Below the pieces are notes generated by a model. That model searched no databases. It was not told the DNA's origin and saw only the letters and a list, made by a program, of their open reading frames with translations. From contig QNFR01000003.1 in the NCBI GenBank assembly GCA_003646405.1, forward strand, positions 1-60,839: a DNA stretch of 60,839 bases, read 5' to 3'. The position numbers were made by a program, and so were the translations under genes. Source of the stretch: Gammaproteobacteria bacterium. GTDB lineage: Bacteria > Pseudomonadota > Gammaproteobacteria > Pseudomonadales > Halieaceae. Each line of letters begins with the position of its first letter. Position 1 is the stretch's first letter. Shown in pieces: positions 6,536-60,839 of this stretch.

Positions 6536-6847
6536 ATGAATCGCGATATTGGTCTAGTCGTTTATGAGCTAGACAGCACGGACTTGACTACCTCCACCGG
6601 AAAGCTCCTTCTTACGATGCTTGCAGGGTTGGCTGAAATGGAACTAGAAACACTCAAGGAAAGGCAGCGTATTGGTATTGCCCGTGCAAAAAAAGAGGGT
6701 AAATATATTGGGAGAAAGCCCGTAGATTCGAAAATTATAGATACTGCCTTCCAGTTAAAAAATAATGGCGTATCAATTGATGCCATAGCAACCCAACTAA
6801 AACTAGGACGTTCTACGCTTTATCGTGAGTTTGCGAAGCGATTATAA
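6536..6847 (+). pseudogene. Headless serine recombinase (resolvase) relic
   Basis: The frame reads GLVVYELDSTDLTTSTGKLL, then MLAGLAEMELETLKERQRIG and a C-terminal helix-turn-helix ending YREFAKRL. This matches the second half of resolvase/invertase-type serine recombinases. The first ~85 residues, including the catalytic Ser, are missing; what precedes the frame (6509-6535) does not match. It is A+T-richer than its neighbours and on the opposite strand, so it is probably the scar of another mobile element. Confidence 0.72.
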
Positions 6848-10570: not shown

Positions 10571-12418
10571 TTAAGTCCTTTCACCCGGTGTGACGATATG
10601 ATGCAAATGATCATATATCCGTTGTGCCATTGTGGCACTAATTCCAGAGATTTTCTGTAACTCCTCTACATTGGCATTCTCCACGCCCTGGGCGCTGCCA
10701 AAATGGCGCAGCAATTCCCGCCTGCGCTTGGCACCCACCCCGGGAATATCCTCCAGTGTTGACCGTTGCCGCGCTTTATCGCGTCGTGCCCTGTGGCCCG
10801 TAATGGCGAAGCGGTGTGCCTCGTCTCGTATTTGCTGGATAAGATGTAGCGCCGCATTGTCACCGGGCAATTGCCTCTGCTCCCCGGTAGCGCCATTGAC
10901 CAGGGTTTCGAAACCGGCTTTTCGGGTGAGCCCCTTGGCCACACCAATAACTTCCACACCGCTCAACTGCAGGTCCCGCAGTACCGTCATGGCCTGGGTA
11001 ACCTGCCCTTTACCCCCGTCGATAAACAAAATGTCGGGGCGGATCCCCTCTCCCGATTTGAGCCGCTTATAACGCCGTTCCAGCGCCTGCGCCATGGCGG
11101 CGTAATCATCGCCCGGGGTAATACCCTCGATATTGAACTTGCGGTAATCGGATTTACGCGCACCATTTTGATCAAATACCACACAGGAAGCCACGGTCGC
11201 CTCACCGGAGCTATGGCTGATATCGAAGCACTCCATGCGCTCCGGCAACTCGGGTAATGCCAACAAATCCTGCAGTGCCTGCAGCCGTCCTATCATTGTC
11301 TGGCGCCCGGCCAGGTGAGATTCCAGGTTGGTCTCGGCGGTCTGCACAGCCAACTTCAACCATCGGGCTCTGGCTTCACGTACCCGACTGCGCAGTTTTA
11401 CCTGGTGCCGGGCCTGCACTGACAGGGCCTGCGCCAGTATCACCGTATCTTCGGGCACCTCATTGACGATTATCTCCGCGGGAACAGCCCGGGCCCCACC
11501 CAGGTAATACTGAGGAATAAATGCCGACAGCACTTGAGCCGCACTCTCTTGCAATTTCAGCGGCGGATAATAGGTTTTGCTACCCAGCACTCGCGCGCCA
11601 CGCACAAATAACACCTGTACACAGGCCCGTCCGCCCATTGCCGCGGCAGCAAGGATATCCAGGTCCCCCGTAACCCCCTCGATACCCTGACTGGCCTGCA
11701 CATGCTGCAGCTGGCTGAGTTGGTCACGGTAAATAGCCGCCTTTTCATACGCCAGTTGCGCCGCCGCCGCTTCCATATCATCCGCCAGGCGCACCATTAA
11801 TTGCTGGGACTTGCCGCGCAAAAACAGGGTGGTGCTTGCCACCTGTGCGTCGTACTCTTCCTTGCCTACCAGGTCGACGCAGGGGGCACTGCACCGGTCA
11901 ATCTGGTGCTGCAGGCAAGGCCGGGAACGATTCTTGAAGTAACTGTCTTCGCACTGCCTGACCTTGAATACCTTCTGCAGAAAGTGCAGCGATTCCCGTA
12001 CTGCCGCAGCGCTGGGATAAGGACCGAAATACAGTCCTTTTTTACGCTTGGCGCCTCGATGCAGGCTGAGCCTGGGAAACTTGTCCTCGCTGGATAAAAA
12101 TATATAGGGGTAGGATTTATCGTCCCGCAGTAGAATATTGTATGGCGGCTGCTGGGTCTTGATGAGGTTGTGTTCCAGCAGCAGCGCATCCACCTCGGTG
12201 GAGGTAACGGTCACCTGTATGTCCTGGATGCGCGCCACCAGCGCCATGGTCTTCTCGGTAAGGCCGCTGGCGCGAAAATAGCTTCCCACCCGGTTTTTGA
12301 GGTTGCGTGCCTTACCCACGTAGAGCAGCTTACCCTCTGTGTCGTACATCTGGTAGATGCCCGGGCGTGTTGTGAGCGCTTTCAAAAAAGCCTTATGATC
12401 GAACTCGCTCACAGGCAT
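10571..12418 (-). CDS. uvrC: Excinuclease ABC subunit C
   Basis: Nucleotide-excision repair nuclease that makes both incisions with UvrB; 615 aa. It has an N-terminal GIY-YIG domain (RPGIYQMYDTEGKLLYVGKA), a central cysteine cluster, a UVR motif (about residues 200-235), an RNase H-like domain with the DISHSSGE motif, and C-terminal helix-hairpin-helix repeats ending near DIPGVGAKRRRELLRHFGS. The start at 12418 gives the normal length and overlaps the murB stop by one base; the open frame upstream is murB coding sequence. Confidence 0.96.
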   Translation of the reverse strand: MPVSEFDHKAFLKALTTRPGIYQMYDTEGKLLYVGKARNLKNRVGSYFRASGLTEKTMALVARIQDIQVTVTSTEVDALLLEHNLIKTQQPPYNILLRDDKSYPYIFLSSEDKFPRLSLHRGAKRKKGLYFGPYPSAAAVRESLHFLQKVFKVRQCEDSYFKNRSRPCLQHQIDRCSAPCVDLVGKEEYDAQVASTTLFLRGKSQQLMVRLADDMEAAAAQLAYEKAAIYRDQLSQLQHVQASQGIEGVTGDLDILAAAAMGGRACVQVLFVRGARVLGSKTYYPPLKLQESAAQVLSAFIPQYYLGGARAVPAEIIVNEVPEDTVILAQALSVQARHQVKLRSRVREARARWLKLAVQTAETNLESHLAGRQTMIGRLQALQDLLALPELPERMECFDISHSSGEATVASCVVFDQNGARKSDYRKFNIEGITPGDDYAAMAQALERRYKRLKSGEGIRPDILFIDGGKGQVTQAMTVLRDLQLSGVEVIGVAKGLTRKAGFETLVNGATGEQRQLPGDNAALHLIQQIRDEAHRFAITGHRARRDKARQRSTLEDIPGVGAKRRRELLRHFGSAQGVENANVEELQKISGISATMAQRIYDHLHHIVTPGERT

Positions 12419-54509: not shown

Positions 54510-55661
54510 TTACTTATACGACGCGACCGGGCTTGGATTAAAAAACTCCAGAATACTGTCGCGTTGAGCCATCGCATCACGATACCCGCAGTCAATTAAC
54601 TCTTTGCAAAACTCTTTTTCAAACAATAAATAACTCGCCAGACTGGTGCCGCCGCCTTTTTCGGTTGCTCCAATAACCTTCATCGCAAGGCGCATCGCTC
54701 GCGGTAAATCCTTGACGTGTTTTGCCGCAATATCGTCGAACTCCATACTCGGGTAAATCACCAATAAATCGATAATGCGCATATCCCCGGGCGGAGTGTG
54801 AGGGCTTTCGTTTTGAACATAAGCCACCAGGTCATTCACGTTGACCAGCGTGTCGATATCATGTTCCAGACTATCGATAAACGCACTGTTGAAAATATGG
54901 CCTATCATTTGTGCCAGTGACGGAGAATGCGTTTCCTGCTCCCGCCGTGGTACATGGGTTGCATTGCCGCTCACACCGATGACCAACACGCGATCCGCAC
55001 CCATACGAATGACCGGGCTTATTGGCGCAAGTTGTCGCAGTGCACCATCACCGAAATATTCCCGGCTGATTTTTTCAGCGGGCAGCAGAGCGGGAATCGC
55101 AGAAGAGCCCAGAATATGACTGACATTCAAGCTGCCGGGCACTCCCACGCTACGGCCATTGCGCCATTTTCCCATACTGGGTAAACCCTGAAAAAATGTG
55201 ACACTTTCCCCTGAGGTATACCCTGTAGCGGAGACACCAACCGCATCCAGGTAGCCCTTATCGATACGTTTCTGGATATTCCTGAATTGAATCGACTGAT
55301 TTAACAAATCTCGCAGGGGGTCGTTGTTGAGCAGTGACAGGGGGCGAGTCCGGCCAACACCCTGATTAAACAACGAGCCCAGCATACGACCCATACCACT
55401 GAGCAAATCCCAACACCCCGCCTTGTAGACTTTGTCAACGTGTAATGAATTCCAGATTTTCTCGACTTTCTTCACGGCCAGGCGAAAATTATTGGCCGAT
55501 GCGGCCAGCGCCACCGCATTGACAGCACCAGCGGAAGTCCCACTGATAATGGAAAATGGATTGTGGGCATCCTTTGCGTGCAAATCGGCGATGGCTTTGA
55601 GCACACCCACCTGATAAGCACCTCGAGCGCCGCCCCCGGAAAGAACCAGTGCAGGTTTCAT
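54510..55661 (-). CDS. Patatin-like phospholipase
   Basis: 383 aa with an N-terminal patatin domain: oxyanion-hole LSGGGARGAYQVGVLK, nucleophile elbow GTSAGAVNA (S43) and catalytic Asp in FGDGALRQL. No signal peptide is seen, so it is probably cytoplasmic or peripheral. The C-terminal DUF3336-like part is not clear. Substrates are unknown. The integrated element begins upstream of it. Confidence 0.88.
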   Translation of the reverse strand: MKPALVLSGGGARGAYQVGVLKAIADLHAKDAHNPFSIISGTSAGAVNAVALAASANNFRLAVKKVEKIWNSLHVDKVYKAGCWDLLSGMGRMLGSLFNQGVGRTRPLSLLNNDPLRDLLNQSIQFRNIQKRIDKGYLDAVGVSATGYTSGESVTFFQGLPSMGKWRNGRSVGVPGSLNVSHILGSSAIPALLPAEKISREYFGDGALRQLAPISPVIRMGADRVLVIGVSGNATHVPRREQETHSPSLAQMIGHIFNSAFIDSLEHDIDTLVNVNDLVAYVQNESPHTPPGDMRIIDLLVIYPSMEFDDIAAKHVKDLPRAMRLAMKVIGATEKGGGTSLASYLLFEKEFCKELIDCGYRDAMAQRDSILEFFNPSPVASYK

Positions 55662-55950
55662 TGACTGTTGTTATGGTTGAGTATTCGCCCGAGTATAGAC
55701 CACCCAAAGCAGAATTTCACCGGATACATAACGCTGAGCAGCTCTCGGGAATAGCACTAGCCGGTGGAGAGATTCCCAAAATTGGAGGCGACCCAGACGG
55801 GTAACCCCTTGTTTTATCCCACCGCATCCAATTGAATTAAACATATTTTAACCTACATACAAAGCATATTTCTCATTTGCCTTGTGTTTCACCATAACAC
55901 CGCGTAACATCCAAACGCAAGTATTTATGTTGGCTAGGATGTCGGACAAA

Positions 55951-57240
55951 ATGCCCAAGGTTGCCAAAGAACTATCCGCCATTGAGGTTCAACGCCTCAC
56001 TCGCATGCCGCCGGACACCCGGGCATTCAATTACTTCCCTGCCGGGGGCGTACCGGGCCTCCTACTACGCGTGGCCAAATCCGGCGCCTGCTATTGGGTG
56101 CTCAGGGCGAGTGTTGGCAAGAGGGTTACCAGCAGCGGCAAAGAGGCCCCACTACGCCGCGACATAGGCCTGGGTGCCTACCCTGAAATCTCCCTCAAAG
56201 TAGCCCGCCAGCGGGCGGCAGTAAAGCGGGAGATGATCCGCGAGGGTCTGGACCCCGTGCAGGAGCGCCGGACCGCAAGGCAGGCACGGCAAGCTCTCAT
56301 CGCCCAGCACATGACTTTCAATGAAGCGGTGGAGATTGCCAAGGAACTGGAGTCCATCGGGGATGACAAGGCGGGCAAAGCCTGGACCCACAAGTTGGAA
56401 ACCTACGCGATCCCCACCCTGGGGCACCTGCCCGTTGCGAAAATTGAGCGGGACCATATCGTTGATGTATTGCTCCCGATCTGGACAACCAAGACCAGGA
56501 CCGCCAAGGATGTGCGAAAGCTGGTCGAGGATGTACTGGATCGGGCCTATGCTGCCAAAAATATCGGACGCCACAATCCGGCCCGCTGGGACAAACTGCT
56601 GCAACATCGACTGCCCAAGGCGACCAAAAAGGGAACAAACTTCCCTGCCCTACCCTTCCCCCTGATAAATACCTTCCTGGCTGAGTTGCGCAAGCTCACC
56701 GATACAGCGGCGCCAGCGGTGGCGTTTGTCATCTACACCGGCGCCCGATCCGGCGAAGTCTGCGGCTCCACCTGGCGGGAGATCGACCTGGACCGCAAGT
56801 TGTGGACCATCCCCAAGGAACGCATGAAAAAGGGCGAGGAACACCGCATACACCTCTCTGCGCCCGCAGTGGCGATTCTAAAGGCTTTAGCCGGGGGTGG
56901 ACCTGATGACCCTGTATTCCCCACTGTGACCGGCAGGCACCACCAGAACGCCAGACCATCCAAGATAACGCGGGAGATCGGCAAGGGCATGGGCTACCAG
57001 GCCACTGTTCACGGATTCCGCGCTACTTTCCGCACCTGGGGCGAGGAAGAAACCGAATACCCAGAATCTATTCTGGAAATGGCCCTGGCTCATAAAATCG
57101 ACGATGCGGTGAAAGCGGCTTACCAGCGCGGTGATCTGCTGAAAAAACGGCGCGCCCTGATGGATGACTGGGCCGCGTATTGTGCGAAGCCAGCTCCCGC
57201 AGGCGCCGTGGTGAACATTGGGGAGCGAGTCAATGGGTAA
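55951..57240 (+). CDS. int: P4-type phage integrase
   Basis: Tyrosine recombinase of 429 aa from 55951 (MPKVAKELSAIEVQRL); starts at 55939 and 55882 are also open. It has an N-terminal DUF4102 arm-binding domain (GGVPGLLLRVAKSGA, RRDIGLGAYPEISL), a core-binding domain near residues 110-200, and a catalytic domain with TGARSGEV (Arg), the Lys region WTIPKERMKK, HGFRATF and AYQRGD (Tyr). All catalytic residues are present. It marks the left end of an integrated element; no tRNA target or att repeat is visible on this side. Confidence 0.93.
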   Translation: MPKVAKELSAIEVQRLTRMPPDTRAFNYFPAGGVPGLLLRVAKSGACYWVLRASVGKRVTSSGKEAPLRRDIGLGAYPEISLKVARQRAAVKREMIREGLDPVQERRTARQARQALIAQHMTFNEAVEIAKELESIGDDKAGKAWTHKLETYAIPTLGHLPVAKIERDHIVDVLLPIWTTKTRTAKDVRKLVEDVLDRAYAAKNIGRHNPARWDKLLQHRLPKATKKGTNFPALPFPLINTFLAELRKLTDTAAPAVAFVIYTGARSGEVCGSTWREIDLDRKLWTIPKERMKKGEEHRIHLSAPAVAILKALAGGGPDDPVFPTVTGRHHQNARPSKITREIGKGMGYQATVHGFRATFRTWGEEETEYPESILEMALAHKIDDAVKAAYQRGDLLKKRRALMDDWAAYCAKPAPAGAVVNIGERVNG

Positions 57241-57931
57241 AGAGAGACCACTAAACAAAGACCCCGAAAAAGAATATCTATACCAGGCGATGAATGCCGC
57301 GCTGGCTGCAATGGCTGAGGCGCAAGTGAAGTTGCTCGACAGGCAACGCATCGCCGCTTCTGGTTTGCGATTGGAGGAAGCTGAGCGAGAAAGGGAGCTG
57401 GATCGACATGAAGATCTTTGTTGGCGAACAATTAAGAACCAGCACAAGCCATTTCAATACACAGAGTATCTCGGGGACATCGCGCTACCAATGGATGTAG
57501 TGGCCACCCTGCTACGAGCAGTTTATAAATTCGAGATATTGGATAATATTGCAAAAAACACAGCAAAGAATCGTGATGAACTGTGGCAGGTTCTCAGAGA
57601 TGCAAGAGACGCCTTTGACGACCCCGGCATATTAGGCCGAGCCCATCAAAACCAAGCCGCTATGAATGTACTGGGGATGACCGAGCGAAAGGGCAACCAA
57701 CCCGAATTATGGCTTGATGAATACCAGCACTTGATTCGACCCCGAATAACTGACGATCGTCCTTTTGTGCCAATGGGCAAAGAATTTGCGGTTAATTATC
57801 TAGCCAGGAAATACAAAAAAGGCAAGAAAAGCAATAGAAATATAATGTTCGACGCCCTGGCTAAAGAAATCACGCGACAGCGCAAAGAAGGTATATCAAT
57901 TCCCAGCATCCTACCGCAGAGGGAGCCATAG
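57233..57931 (+). CDS. Uncharacterised gene after the integrase
   Basis: 232 aa from the ATG at 57233, overlapping the integrase by 8 bp. Highly charged and helical (AALAAMAEAQVKLLDRQRIA, EEAERERELDRHEDL), with a basic C-terminus (ARKYKKGKKSNRN). No family is recognised. The overlap suggests co-expression with the integrase. Confidence 0.65.
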   Translation: MGKERPLNKDPEKEYLYQAMNAALAAMAEAQVKLLDRQRIAASGLRLEEAERERELDRHEDLCWRTIKNQHKPFQYTEYLGDIALPMDVVATLLRAVYKFEILDNIAKNTAKNRDELWQVLRDARDAFDDPGILGRAHQNQAAMNVLGMTERKGNQPELWLDEYQHLIRPRITDDRPFVPMGKEFAVNYLARKYKKGKKSNRNIMFDALAKEITRQRKEGISIPSILPQREP

Positions 57932-58036
57932 CCCATACAGGGGGAAATCGCCTAACGAATTTCCCCTGACATTTAATTTTCCAGCCCAGTAATATTTCCC
58001 TGCAACGGCAAACTATGCCTTTCAAGGGAACAAGAC

Positions 58037-58222
58037 ATGAACACTTCACACCTTCCACGAAAGTGGGTATCTGACAAAACTCTAGCCGAATATTTCGAAG
58101 TGAGCCGCGCCACTATCTGGCGTTGGGTCAAGATCGGAAAACTTCCTGCACCTGAAAAAATTGGTGAAAACTGCACTCGCTGGGACTTCGAGAAAATCAC
58201 TCAGGCTGAAAACGCCGCATAA
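58037..58222 (+). CDS. AlpA-type excisionase/regulator
   Basis: 61-aa helix-turn-helix protein: WVSDKTLAEYFEVSRATIWR, then WVKIGKLPAPEKIG and RWDFEKI, the AlpA/MerR-like pattern. Such proteins control integrase and excision in P4-type elements. An AAGGGA ribosome binding site lies 11 bp upstream. Confidence 0.88.
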   Translation: MNTSHLPRKWVSDKTLAEYFEVSRATIWRWVKIGKLPAPEKIGENCTRWDFEKITQAENAA

Positions 58223-58228
58223 ATCACT

Positions 58229-60286
58229 GTGCAAAAAAAACCACCAGTGTTGGGCTGGCGGCAATTGATGATGACCATATCGGAATGGACAAGAAACATG
58301 ATAGCACAGAGCACAGCACCACTACACGATGAAGGCCTGCAGTTCCCCGTGGCTTTCGGTCACAATAAAACTGATGTCGACCTGCAGTTAAAAACCCTGA
58401 CCCTTGAAGACATGGCCGCGTTGTTTTCCAAGTTTCGCGAAGGTAAAGAAGGCAAAAAAGAGGGTGATAAGAACGGGCCCTACATTATCCCGGCCAAGTT
58501 TGGGGATAACTATCGCAATAGCGACAACATAAGAACCTGGTCCGTGGCAACGCTGGACTTGGACGATAAAGTATTCGCCACAGAGGCCATGATCCGGGAG
58601 CAGCTGTCCGGCCTGGTCTATTTTGCCCACACCACCCACCGCCACCTTATCAAAGTTCCGAGGGTAGAGATGTGGCGGGTGTACCTCCCCTACAACCAGC
58701 CAGTGCCGCCCAGCCTGCACGAAAAAATCCAAGCGAGATTAAACGCACTCTTCCCGGGTACCGACGACTGCACCGAAAAAACCATGCAGTTCTTTTACCT
58801 CCCCTCCCACTGGCCGGGGATGGGCCACGAGGCGCGCTCTTTCAACACCCTGGGCGAAGGCGAGTTGCTGAACCCGCTGACCTTCGATCCGGCACCGGTG
58901 AAGGGAGCAAGCCGACCCGATGAATGGGACGGGAGCGCGCCGGGTGACAAGACACCAAAAACACCAGGGCAATACAGCGACTGGCTGGGCAAGATGCTGG
59001 AAGGTGACAACCTGCACGGGAATGCCACTGCAGTAACTGCCAGCATGGTTTCCAGGGGCCTGGATGATGCCACGATCATGTCAGTGTTCCAGGCATGGCG
59101 CCCCACGCTTGAGGAGGCCAGAGACCTGGAGCGAGTGCAGGCCCTGTTCGGGGGTGAATTGCAGCGCCTGATCGACGGGGCCCGCCGATTCATCGCCAAA
59201 AACGAACCGGCGCCCGGTAAAGACTTCGACGACTTTGTATTAAGCCAGACCGCCGATGCAATGGAGGCTGAAATGGATGCGGACAAATATGTCATTGCTC
59301 GAATGGCCATATTCGGGCAGAGCACTGTTTTCTACGGTGACAGCAACATGGGCAAGACCCTGCTAACCATTCACCAGGTCGCACAGCAGATCGAGGACGG
59401 CGAGATTGACGGGAGCCAGGTCTACTACGTCAACGCCGACGACCACGGTCGCGGGATTGTCCAAAAGCAACGCCTGGCGGAAAAGTACGGTTTCAAGATG
59501 CTGGTGCCCGGCCGTGAGGGTTTCCAGGCCAACATGTTGCGCCCTTTACTGCAAGCACGGGTCAAAGCTGGGCGCGGGGGGGGTTGTGTTGTCATCCTGG
59601 ACACGCTGAAGAAATTCACCGATCTGATGAGCAAGCGCGAAGGCACCGCCTGGGGCAATATCTCCCGGGAATTTGTCTCTGCCGGGGGCACCCTGGCCGC
59701 CCTGGCGCACACTAACAAGCACAAGGACGACGACGGTAATTCAATCTACGCCGGTACTGCCGATGTGGTTCAGGACTGCGATTGCGCCTACATTATTGAA
59801 TTGGTAGACGATGATATCGGCACCAGGACCGTGGTTTTTCGCAACATCAAGGCCCGGGGGGACGTTGACCGCAAGCGGGCGTTTTCTTATACCCTCGATG
59901 TGCCCTACCAGGAGATGTTCGACTCCGTGCAGGTCATCGAGGACCAGGTACTGGAGCGGTCCCGGGAGCGTAAAGTCTTCGCCGATACCCTGGCCAAACA
60001 CCATGACGCCATCATGCATATTCAATCCCTGATCCGCGAGGGGGTGACAAAACGCCGCGCGCTAATTGATCGCGGGTATAGGAATACTAACTTCAGCCGG
60101 GCATTCATTACCGAGGTCCTGGACGAACACAGCGGAGACAATCTGCTGCAGGGCCACAGGTGGAAATGCAGCAAAGGACCCAAAAACAGCCTGTTGTACA
60201 GCCTTTTAAGTGGGGGGTCGGAAAGCTGTACAACTGGTACAACAGAAATGGGTGAATCCCGGTCCGCCGAGGAGTGGGAGTCGTGA
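58229..60286 (+). CDS. Primase-helicase-like replication protein
   Basis: 685 aa. The N-terminal half has a PrimPol-like core: WSVATLDLDD (109-113 acidic DLDD) and YFAHTTHRH (131-139). The C-terminal half is a RepA/AAA_25-type helicase with Walker A GDSNMGKT (370-377) and Walker B GGCVVILDTLKK. The GTG at 58229 is used; ATG at 58268 is an alternative start. It probably initiates replication of the excised element. GTACAA motifs overlap its 3' end. Confidence 0.8.
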   Translation: MQKKPPVLGWRQLMMTISEWTRNMIAQSTAPLHDEGLQFPVAFGHNKTDVDLQLKTLTLEDMAALFSKFREGKEGKKEGDKNGPYIIPAKFGDNYRNSDNIRTWSVATLDLDDKVFATEAMIREQLSGLVYFAHTTHRHLIKVPRVEMWRVYLPYNQPVPPSLHEKIQARLNALFPGTDDCTEKTMQFFYLPSHWPGMGHEARSFNTLGEGELLNPLTFDPAPVKGASRPDEWDGSAPGDKTPKTPGQYSDWLGKMLEGDNLHGNATAVTASMVSRGLDDATIMSVFQAWRPTLEEARDLERVQALFGGELQRLIDGARRFIAKNEPAPGKDFDDFVLSQTADAMEAEMDADKYVIARMAIFGQSTVFYGDSNMGKTLLTIHQVAQQIEDGEIDGSQVYYVNADDHGRGIVQKQRLAEKYGFKMLVPGREGFQANMLRPLLQARVKAGRGGGCVVILDTLKKFTDLMSKREGTAWGNISREFVSAGGTLAALAHTNKHKDDDGNSIYAGTADVVQDCDCAYIIELVDDDIGTRTVVFRNIKARGDVDRKRAFSYTLDVPYQEMFDSVQVIEDQVLERSRERKVFADTLAKHHDAIMHIQSLIREGVTKRRALIDRGYRNTNFSRAFITEVLDEHSGDNLLQGHRWKCSKGPKNSLLYSLLSGGSESCTTGTTEMGESRSAEEWES

Positions 60287-60338
60287 AACCCTTGCCAGTC
60301 CTGAGTTGTACAAGTGTTACCAACTATACAAGTAGTAC
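60194..60338. repeat. Cluster of GTACAA motifs, possible replication iterons
   Basis: TTGTACA (60194-60200), TGTACAAC (60227-60234), GGTACAAC (60236-60243), TTGTACAAG (60306-60314), CTATACAAG (60324-60332) and GTAC (60335-60338) fall within 145 bp, ending in an A+T-rich stretch (60339-60365). CTGTTGTAC at 60191-60199 is the exact complement of GTACAACAG at 60237-60245. An origin next to the replication gene is inferred. Confidence 0.5.
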
Positions 60339-60397
60339 TAATAATACTAAATACACAGATATTAGACCCCACCCCAAGAAATGCGGAGACCACCACC

Positions 60398-60691
60398 ATG
60401 GGCTGTGAAGCTGTTCAACTGAATTTGAGAAAAAAACGCGTACGCCTGGCAAAGAATCTCCACGTTGAGTTTTCAACCGGCGACGACAATCGACTCCGCG
60501 CGGGCTGGGATCCGGGCGTGCCGGCCACCCCCAGCCGCCAGATCTGGAAGCGGTACAAGCTGACCCGCGATGCCTATCTGCAGGAGATGGCAGTCGACCA
60601 GGGTATCAGTATGGTCCTGGCAGATTGCGAAGGCCTGCGCACATTCAAGCCCACCGGGGCATCACACACCACAGGATGGAACGAGCTATGA
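60398..60691 (+). CDS. Small hypothetical protein of the integrated element
   Basis: 97 aa from the ATG at 60398 (MGCEAVQLNLRKKRVRLAKN). Basic N-terminal half, then RQIWKRYKLTRDAYLQEMAV. Family not recognised. Its stop overlaps the next start by ATGA, and its last bases belong to the 69-bp duplicated unit. Confidence 0.6.
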   Translation: MGCEAVQLNLRKKRVRLAKNLHVEFSTGDDNRLRAGWDPGVPATPSRQIWKRYKLTRDAYLQEMAVDQGISMVLADCEGLRTFKPTGASHTTGWNEL

Positions 60692-60788
60692 AAAACGAGA
60701 GAACACTACGCACCCTGCACCACCGGGGCATCACACACCACAGGATGGAACGAGCTATGAAAAACGAGAGAACACTACGCACCCTGCA
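60651..60788 (+). repeat. Perfect 69-bp tandem duplication
   Basis: Two identical 69-bp units (60651-60719 and 60720-60788) are followed by 8 bases of a third. The period is a multiple of three. Each unit holds the ATG-containing start region of the last gene in the window. Confidence 0.9.
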
Positions 60789-60839
60789 CCACCGGGCCCA
60801 CACCCTGCAGAATGAAACCGCCCGGAAATTTAACTTTAC
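60688..60839 (+). CDS. Start of a small gene with duplicated N-terminus (runs off right edge)
   Basis: From the ATG at 60688 the frame reads MKNERTLRTLHHRGITHHRM and then repeats its start after 23 residues. The second ATG at 60757 begins the presumed ancestral protein (MKNERTLRTLHHRAHTLQNE). Which start is used is unknown. Family not recognised. Confidence 0.5.
   Translation, partial: MKNERTLRTLHHRGITHHRMERAMKNERTLRTLHHRAHTLQNETARKFNF

Follow-up and report, generated by a model that had tools for sequence, protein, structure and literature searches.

A Probable PICI-like Phage Satellite at the 3' End of ffs Encoding an HK97-Fold Capsid Protein without a Fused Maturation Protease

The window analyzed here comprises 60,839 nucleotides and corresponds to contig C3 in the draft assembly of a gammaproteobacterium (G000; 91% complete, 2.90 Mb in 279 contigs). 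Close to the right end of the window, four genes are closely packed on the + strand. The first of these (int, 55939–57240, starting at 55939 or 55951) encodes a tyrosine integrase with Arm-DNA-bind_3, Phage_int_M and Phage_integrase domains (PF13356, PF22022 and PF00589), each above its Pfam cut-off, and with a match to phrog_1; these are P4-type integrase domains, in agreement with the name that a sequence-only reading of this DNA had given to the protein. The end of int is overlapped by orf2 (57233–57931, 232 aa), which has no match in Pfam, PHROGs, NCBIfam or PADLOC. A small HTH regulator of the AlpA/excisionase type follows (58037–58222, 61 aa), recognized by Pfam HTH_17 (28.5 bits against a cut-off of 27) and by phrog_66, an excisionase and transcriptional regulator family; its earlier designation as AlpA has these matches behind it, and no named AlpA model matched. 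The last and largest gene, rep (58268–60286, frame open from 58229), encodes a protein with a primase-like N-terminal part and a RecA/AAA-type ATPase part (phrog_9765, phrog_6357), both recognized weakly by profile. In the primase-helicase proposed earlier, residues 70–205 resemble phage primases (phrog_9765, E 3e-12), and the AAA_25 match, at 24.9 bits, falls below the cut-off of 27. An AlphaFold model of Rep made without an alignment (mean pLDDT 35) was set aside, and the one match from a PDB sequence search was judged to be due to chance. The arrangement as first described, with integrase, unexplained ORF, small HTH regulator and large Rep-like ORF running in one direction over 55.9–60.3 kb, is thereby confirmed.

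Across the 3' end of rep lies a candidate replication origin (60191–60421), in which iteron-like GTACAACTG repeats are placed around an AT-rich stretch (32% GC at 60300–60359). To allow for the repeat word having been picked afterwards, we scored the largest 9-mer family of whatever sequence in a 236-bp stretch: the candidate origin holds five copies, against a maximum of three in 200 shuffles and of four in 514 window tiles, so that families of at least five copies occurred in 0/200 shuffles and 0/514 tiles. Iterons and an AT-rich stretch directly 3' of the replication gene make up the origins reported for Gram-negative PICIs (PMC6092414), which the candidate origin resembles in sequence. A search of the element at a lax threshold returned no int-alpA RNA up to E 1; in one of the related elements described below (L016, genome G230) Rfam places an int-alpA RNA at 6609–6678 (RF02996, 61.9 bits).

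The last 103 bases of C3 (60737–60839, + strand) are identical to the first 103 bases of contig C69 (locus L003, 12,964 bp), the sole other match to this end in the genome, and it is C69 that carries the remainder of the element, which the sequence-only reading had placed beyond the window. C3 ends just after a 69-bp tandem repeat of 2.1 copies (60651–60796, + strand). The join is supported by synteny in the same-family genome G405, where relatives of glnS and cysS, then ffs, dnaX, ybaB, recR and rnd are grouped together, ffs lying 126 bp ahead of dnaX. Among 16 genomes of the order, fetched out of 54 that matched, dnaX lies within 2.3 kb of ffs in 11 and 5–6 kb away in two; in the other three it was not seen in the fetched stretch around ffs. 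That the join consists of a 103-base overlap beside a tandem repeat, together with synteny and not with reads, nonetheless weighs against the satellite interpretation developed below.

Across the join, the + strand continues with orf5 (60314–60691, likely start 60398; no Pfam or PADLOC match), orf6 (60757–60839 and on to L003 320, spanning both contigs), orf7 (L003 525–911), the major capsid protein gene (MCP; L003 972–2039; PF25209, phrog_133), orf9 (L003 2036–2536) and a gene for a small terminase, TerS, of the Nu1/phrog_141 type (L003 2794–3303). Three genes inside the element lie on the − strand, encoding a HicA-like toxin (L003 3489–3803), a 106-aa partner in the antitoxin position (L003 3800–4120) that matched no family, and a Q-like antiterminator of a phage family (L003 4271–4618), for which matches were found in 8 of 50,697 phage records, the best at 35% identity. 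The element thus has ten genes on the + strand and these three on the other.

An 18-bp attL core at 55781–55798 recurs, identical, as the attR core at L003 4735–4752, at the 3' end of the SRP RNA gene ffs (L003 4746–4842, − strand; RF00169, 69 bits), with no other exact copy in the window and C69. The second att site called for by the sequence-only reading is therefore found, and the left end, which had been set at 55951, is indeed the left end of the element but begins at the att core at 55781. Judged by its sequence, the element is complete, bounded by att repeats and integrated at the 3' end of ffs beside dnaX, with a joined length of 9,690 bp (about 9.69 kb) if the repeat is counted rightly. 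To the right of attR on C69 we find ffs, tRNA-Arg, tRNA-His, tRNA-Pro and core genes, among which folD, cysS and glnS were recognized by eye; the rightward extension, which had been set as a refuting test, thus passes through 4.6 kb of further element genes before ffs and the core genes are reached, and the element withstands it. When the flanks are joined in silico at the core, the resulting empty site contains an intact ffs with a short T-run after it and resembles that in G405. Gram-negative PICIs are characterized by a specific att site that prophages leave free; the attachment site seen here is ffs with a perfect 18-bp repeat. The element also provides ffs as a site for a putative tyrosine-integrase satellite.

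Between the att core and dnaX lies a patatin-like phospholipase gene (window 54510–55661) that is missing there in G405 and that shows weak partial matches to PADLOC phospholipase effectors. We considered it as a part of the element and as anti-phage cargo, and rejected both, as it sits beyond the core and no further core copy occurs nearby even at four mismatches; it is probably host DNA, possibly left by an earlier insertion. The notion that the ffs–dnaX interval is an insertion hotspot, suggested by gaps of 2–6 kb in three loci (L058, L062 and L066), was dropped because the ORFs in these gaps look, by eye, like host genes.

Searches with Pfam and PHROGs found no portal, TerL, maturation protease, tail or lysis gene among the element proteins scanned, the MCP matching fusion families in their non-protease portion. 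Just four frames of the joined element reach at least 200 aa, those of Rep, integrase, capsid and orf2, which leaves no room for a TerL or a portal. Pseudomonas phage LPPA33 carries a related capsid, and its TerL and portal, which are annotated as hypothetical and which we named from position and size, gave no match in the element. An incomplete phage structural set, here MCP and TerS, in combination with no lysis genes is likewise what is asked of a Gram-negative PICI. The anti-phage cargo anticipated for such an element did not materialize: no defence genes were found when eight element proteins were compared with PADLOC, the sole match being a weak partial one to Cas2 (Rep, E 0.003).

As far as its sequence tells, the MCP is the capsid half of phage protease–capsid fusions, without the protease. 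Residues 8–351 match positions 322–664 of 668 in phrog_133, a phage maturation protease–capsid fusion; PF25209 matches as well, and NCBIfam gives the same C-terminal match, below whole-protein cut-offs. In tests against both phrog_133 and PF25209 the capsid half is homologous over its length, and the fused protease half is absent from the frame, which has 355 aa and an upstream stop. The model predicted from 23 sequences shows an HK97 fold at pLDDT 80.6, and encapsulins, JBD30, HK97, the P4 procapsid and the cf-PICI EcCI2 are among the structures that this model appears to resemble. The protein matches 85 of 50,697 phage records at E 1e-3, at 26–27% identity among the matches listed. With a capsid profile (A1) we obtained matches in 37/390 genomes of the order and 62/398 of the phylum, this genome being counted in both, and then counted by hand the non-self matches covering at least 280 of 348 positions, leaving out shorter ones, many of them in frames near 300 aa. 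In the order, all 16 counted matches lie in frames of 479–795 aa, the 479-aa frame adjoining a portal match; in the phylum, 48 of 50 lie in frames of at least 538 aa, and the other two are cut by a contig end (G823) or 505 aa long (G1008). A sample of the class gave capsid matches in 11/369 genomes, the short frames being ours (355 aa) and those of G230 (349 aa), G266 (361 aa), G134 (398 aa, near a contig end) and G247 (471 aa, plus a broken copy). No second capsid of this family was found in our genome, which is 91% complete.

Protease-less capsids with 29–40% identity to this MCP are present in four other loci, namely L016 (G230), L017 (G266), L129 (a Thiobacillus MAG) and L130 (a Proteobacteria MAG); a scan of genome contigs gave 142 pattern matches, three of which are relatives, and scans of IMG/VR with MCP, Rep and an alignment (A3) confirmed none. 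An integrase gene and a replication-type gene, the latter weak in L017, accompany the capsid gene in L016, L017 and L129, and L130 is cut on its left side, so that no integrase was observed there. TerL and portal of LPPA33 had matches in none of the four, a search that unrelated types of these proteins would escape. In all five members of the group the capsid gene is accompanied by orf7, which directly precedes it in L003, L016, L017 and L129 and lies 4.4 kb ahead of it in L130; orf9 comes after the capsid gene in three of these loci (L003, L016 and L129). Searched by tblastn at E 0.01, the 50,697 phage records gave no match to the orf7 product, whose profile matches 9/369 genomes of the class; the idea that it is a strict partner of the capsid is weakened by several profile matches without a capsid gene in the 3-kb stretch. 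Tape-measure proteins are encoded in L016 (11626–14055), L129 (12816–14492) and L130 (8335–10626), the last of which also has a minor tail protein and a TerS, and by means of these proteins the three elements, which otherwise resemble satellites, may set their own tail length. L129 additionally encodes, after capsid and orf9, a 204-aa protein (11680–12294) with a HEAGH motif, zinc-peptidase-like by eye and with no PHROGs match, which going by this motif could be a replacement protease.

In an unrooted 39-row tree six satellite capsids, together with row L018, fall on one side of a 100/100 branch. A second unrooted tree of 30 rows, from which L018, L019, other long rows and near-copies were removed and in which L146 replaces its shorter version, separates L003, L016, L017, L129 and L130 from the other 25 rows by a 100/100 branch found in 200/200 bootstrap trees, and the AU test rejects (p 9e-6) a placement of L017 among the phage rows. 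The sampling leans toward the satellite five, because profiles made from the group served to find some of them. The supposition that the protease is retained by every related capsid outside the group was discarded: L146 (G1008) lacks the protease half yet sits among the fusions, so that protease loss or decay has occurred more than once. This capsid was also taken up separately by two other islands, L146 and L020 (G127), the latter with a neck protein, TerS and a full fusion capsid. A decayed element in G247 (L022, 9600–17500) has a broken capsid gene, TerS and orf7 fragments and a partial integrase, and lies near folD and two tRNA genes, the ffs of that genome being located elsewhere.

A decayed prophage that kept integrase, Rep, capsid and small terminase by chance would explain why the capsid, TerS and Q-like genes come from phage families, and one related island, that in G247 with its broken MCP gene, is visibly decayed. 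We nevertheless hold this origin to be improbable for the present element, whose main frames are all intact and whose att repeat is perfect. Moreover, the orf7–MCP core recurs in other elements, likewise without a TerL or portal match, and random decay would not repeat that same core.

The element is instead likely to be a complete Gram-negative PICI-like phage satellite that its own tyrosine integrase has inserted at the ffs 3' end, with a proposed helper-dependent cycle. The satellite or phage-inducible-island reading first put forward from the left half is strengthened by the att repeats, the length of 9,690 bp, the replication gene with its origin-like repeats, the capsid and the small terminase, and equally by the fact that no gene for TerL, portal, protease or tail was found. 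The DNA itself shows where the element begins and ends, its site, which genes it has and lacks, the capsid family with its grouping, and the origin-like repeats; the helper type and each step of the cycle are what we infer. A helper phage would turn on the AlpA-type regulator, upon which the element excises (step 1), and its replication by Rep would start at the repeats that lie at the 3' end of rep (step 2). The Nu1-type TerS of the satellite, together with the TerL of the helper, would select satellite DNA (step 3), and the protease-less MCP would either join the helper capsid, as does Ccm of SaPIbov5, or form the shell itself in place of the helper's, with protease, portal and tail supplied by the helper (step 4). 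As the shell protein comes without its usually fused protease, the rest of the particle is probably borrowed. More speculatively, the Q-like antiterminator may switch on late transcription (step 5), a function that in P4 belongs to Delta; for antitermination of PICI or satellite late genes, a mention found in the literature concerned phage phi80. No resident helper was found, since the genome (91% complete) yielded neither a GpA-type TerL nor a second capsid of this family, which counts against the satellite reading.

P4-like satellites have a P4-type replication protein and factors such as Sid, Delta and Psu, and P4 is not known to carry an MCP or TerS of its own. The P4-type integrase domains and the small AlpA/Vis-type regulator might suggest a satellite of this type, an assignment that we regard as extremely improbable: neither a P4-type replication protein nor Sid-, Delta- or Psu-like factors appear among the Pfam and PHROGs matches of the element proteins scanned, and the element has its own MCP and TerS. 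An alternative role for the MCP is that of a weapon, in which a protease-less capsid poisons helper heads and so protects the host population, packaging being secondary. Ccm, a capsid homologue, has been described as a weapon against helpers (PMC8569155), and interference is a listed PICI feature (PMC6092414). We deem it unlikely that this is the main role, given that the adjacent TerS gene points to packaging of the satellite's own DNA, and the two roles are compatible.

Beyond the PICI-like satellite itself, one may tentatively picture, at odds that we put below even, a satellite-only lineage of HK97-fold capsids that split from protease–capsid fusions by protease loss and that moves with orf7 among diverse satellites of Proteobacteria, the elements setting their own particle dimensions. 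In this picture the MCP would fix the head, possibly assisted by orf7 as a factor for size or assembly, the tape-measure proteins of the three relatives would fix tail length, and helper protease, portal and terminase would act in trans. Among the titles and abstract openings listed in our literature searches no protease-less capsid group in satellites is described, which is not to claim its absence from print. A capsid gene is common in Gram-negative PICIs; what is added here is a group whose capsid gene lacks the protease otherwise fused to it, is linked to the uncharacterized orf7 and in some cases comes with a tape-measure gene. It allows a clean test of whether a protease-less satellite capsid relies on the helper protease and whether the helper head is resized.

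Among systems already described, the Gram-negative PICIs outlined in PMC6092414 (EcCICFT073, PmCI172 and others) likewise place the integrase first, have an AlpA-type regulator and a replication gene of their own with iterons and an AT-rich stretch behind it, run mostly in one direction over about 10 kb and sometimes encode TerS. The rightward order of int, AlpA regulator and primase-rep is found here too, with the AlpA and Rep labels taken from weak profile matches, a weakness that counts against the satellite reading, as does the orientation of the HicA-like, partner and Q-like genes, which opposes the one-directional order of Gram-negative PICIs. The element differs from them in its Rep, in a capsid without the protease half, in the ffs site and in the opposite orientation of its HicA-like and Q-like genes. 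cf-PICIs have their own full head set of portal, protease, capsid, TerS and TerL; of these, capsid and TerS alone were found here. They are satellites with their own capsid gene, as is ours, whose MCP model has a Foldseek match to EcCI2 (capsid 9gyi), and are reported to make their own capsids (PMC11389934). For PICIs, PMC10111431 gives a capsid gene in 21 of 29 reference elements and reports it to be dispensable for transfer in the cases studied, which is a further point against the satellite reading. The left end of satellite AH14b of Pseudomonas sp. ANT_H14, with integrase, one gene, AlpA regulator and its own primase, is like that of our element; AH14b is 16.8 kb long, and its authors report that neither structural nor terminase genes could be recognized in it (PMC4936722). 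The nearest worked-out case for this MCP would by analogy be Ccm of SaPIbov5, a cos-type SaPI: there too a phage capsid homologue is encoded without an element protease and the helper gives the rest, in a Gram-positive host and with an unrelated capsid family, and the role of Ccm, which is described as occupying pentamers and as unable to form shells alone, has been shown, whereas that of the MCP is proposed (PMC8569155). SaPIs are governed by Stl, the present element putatively by AlpA.
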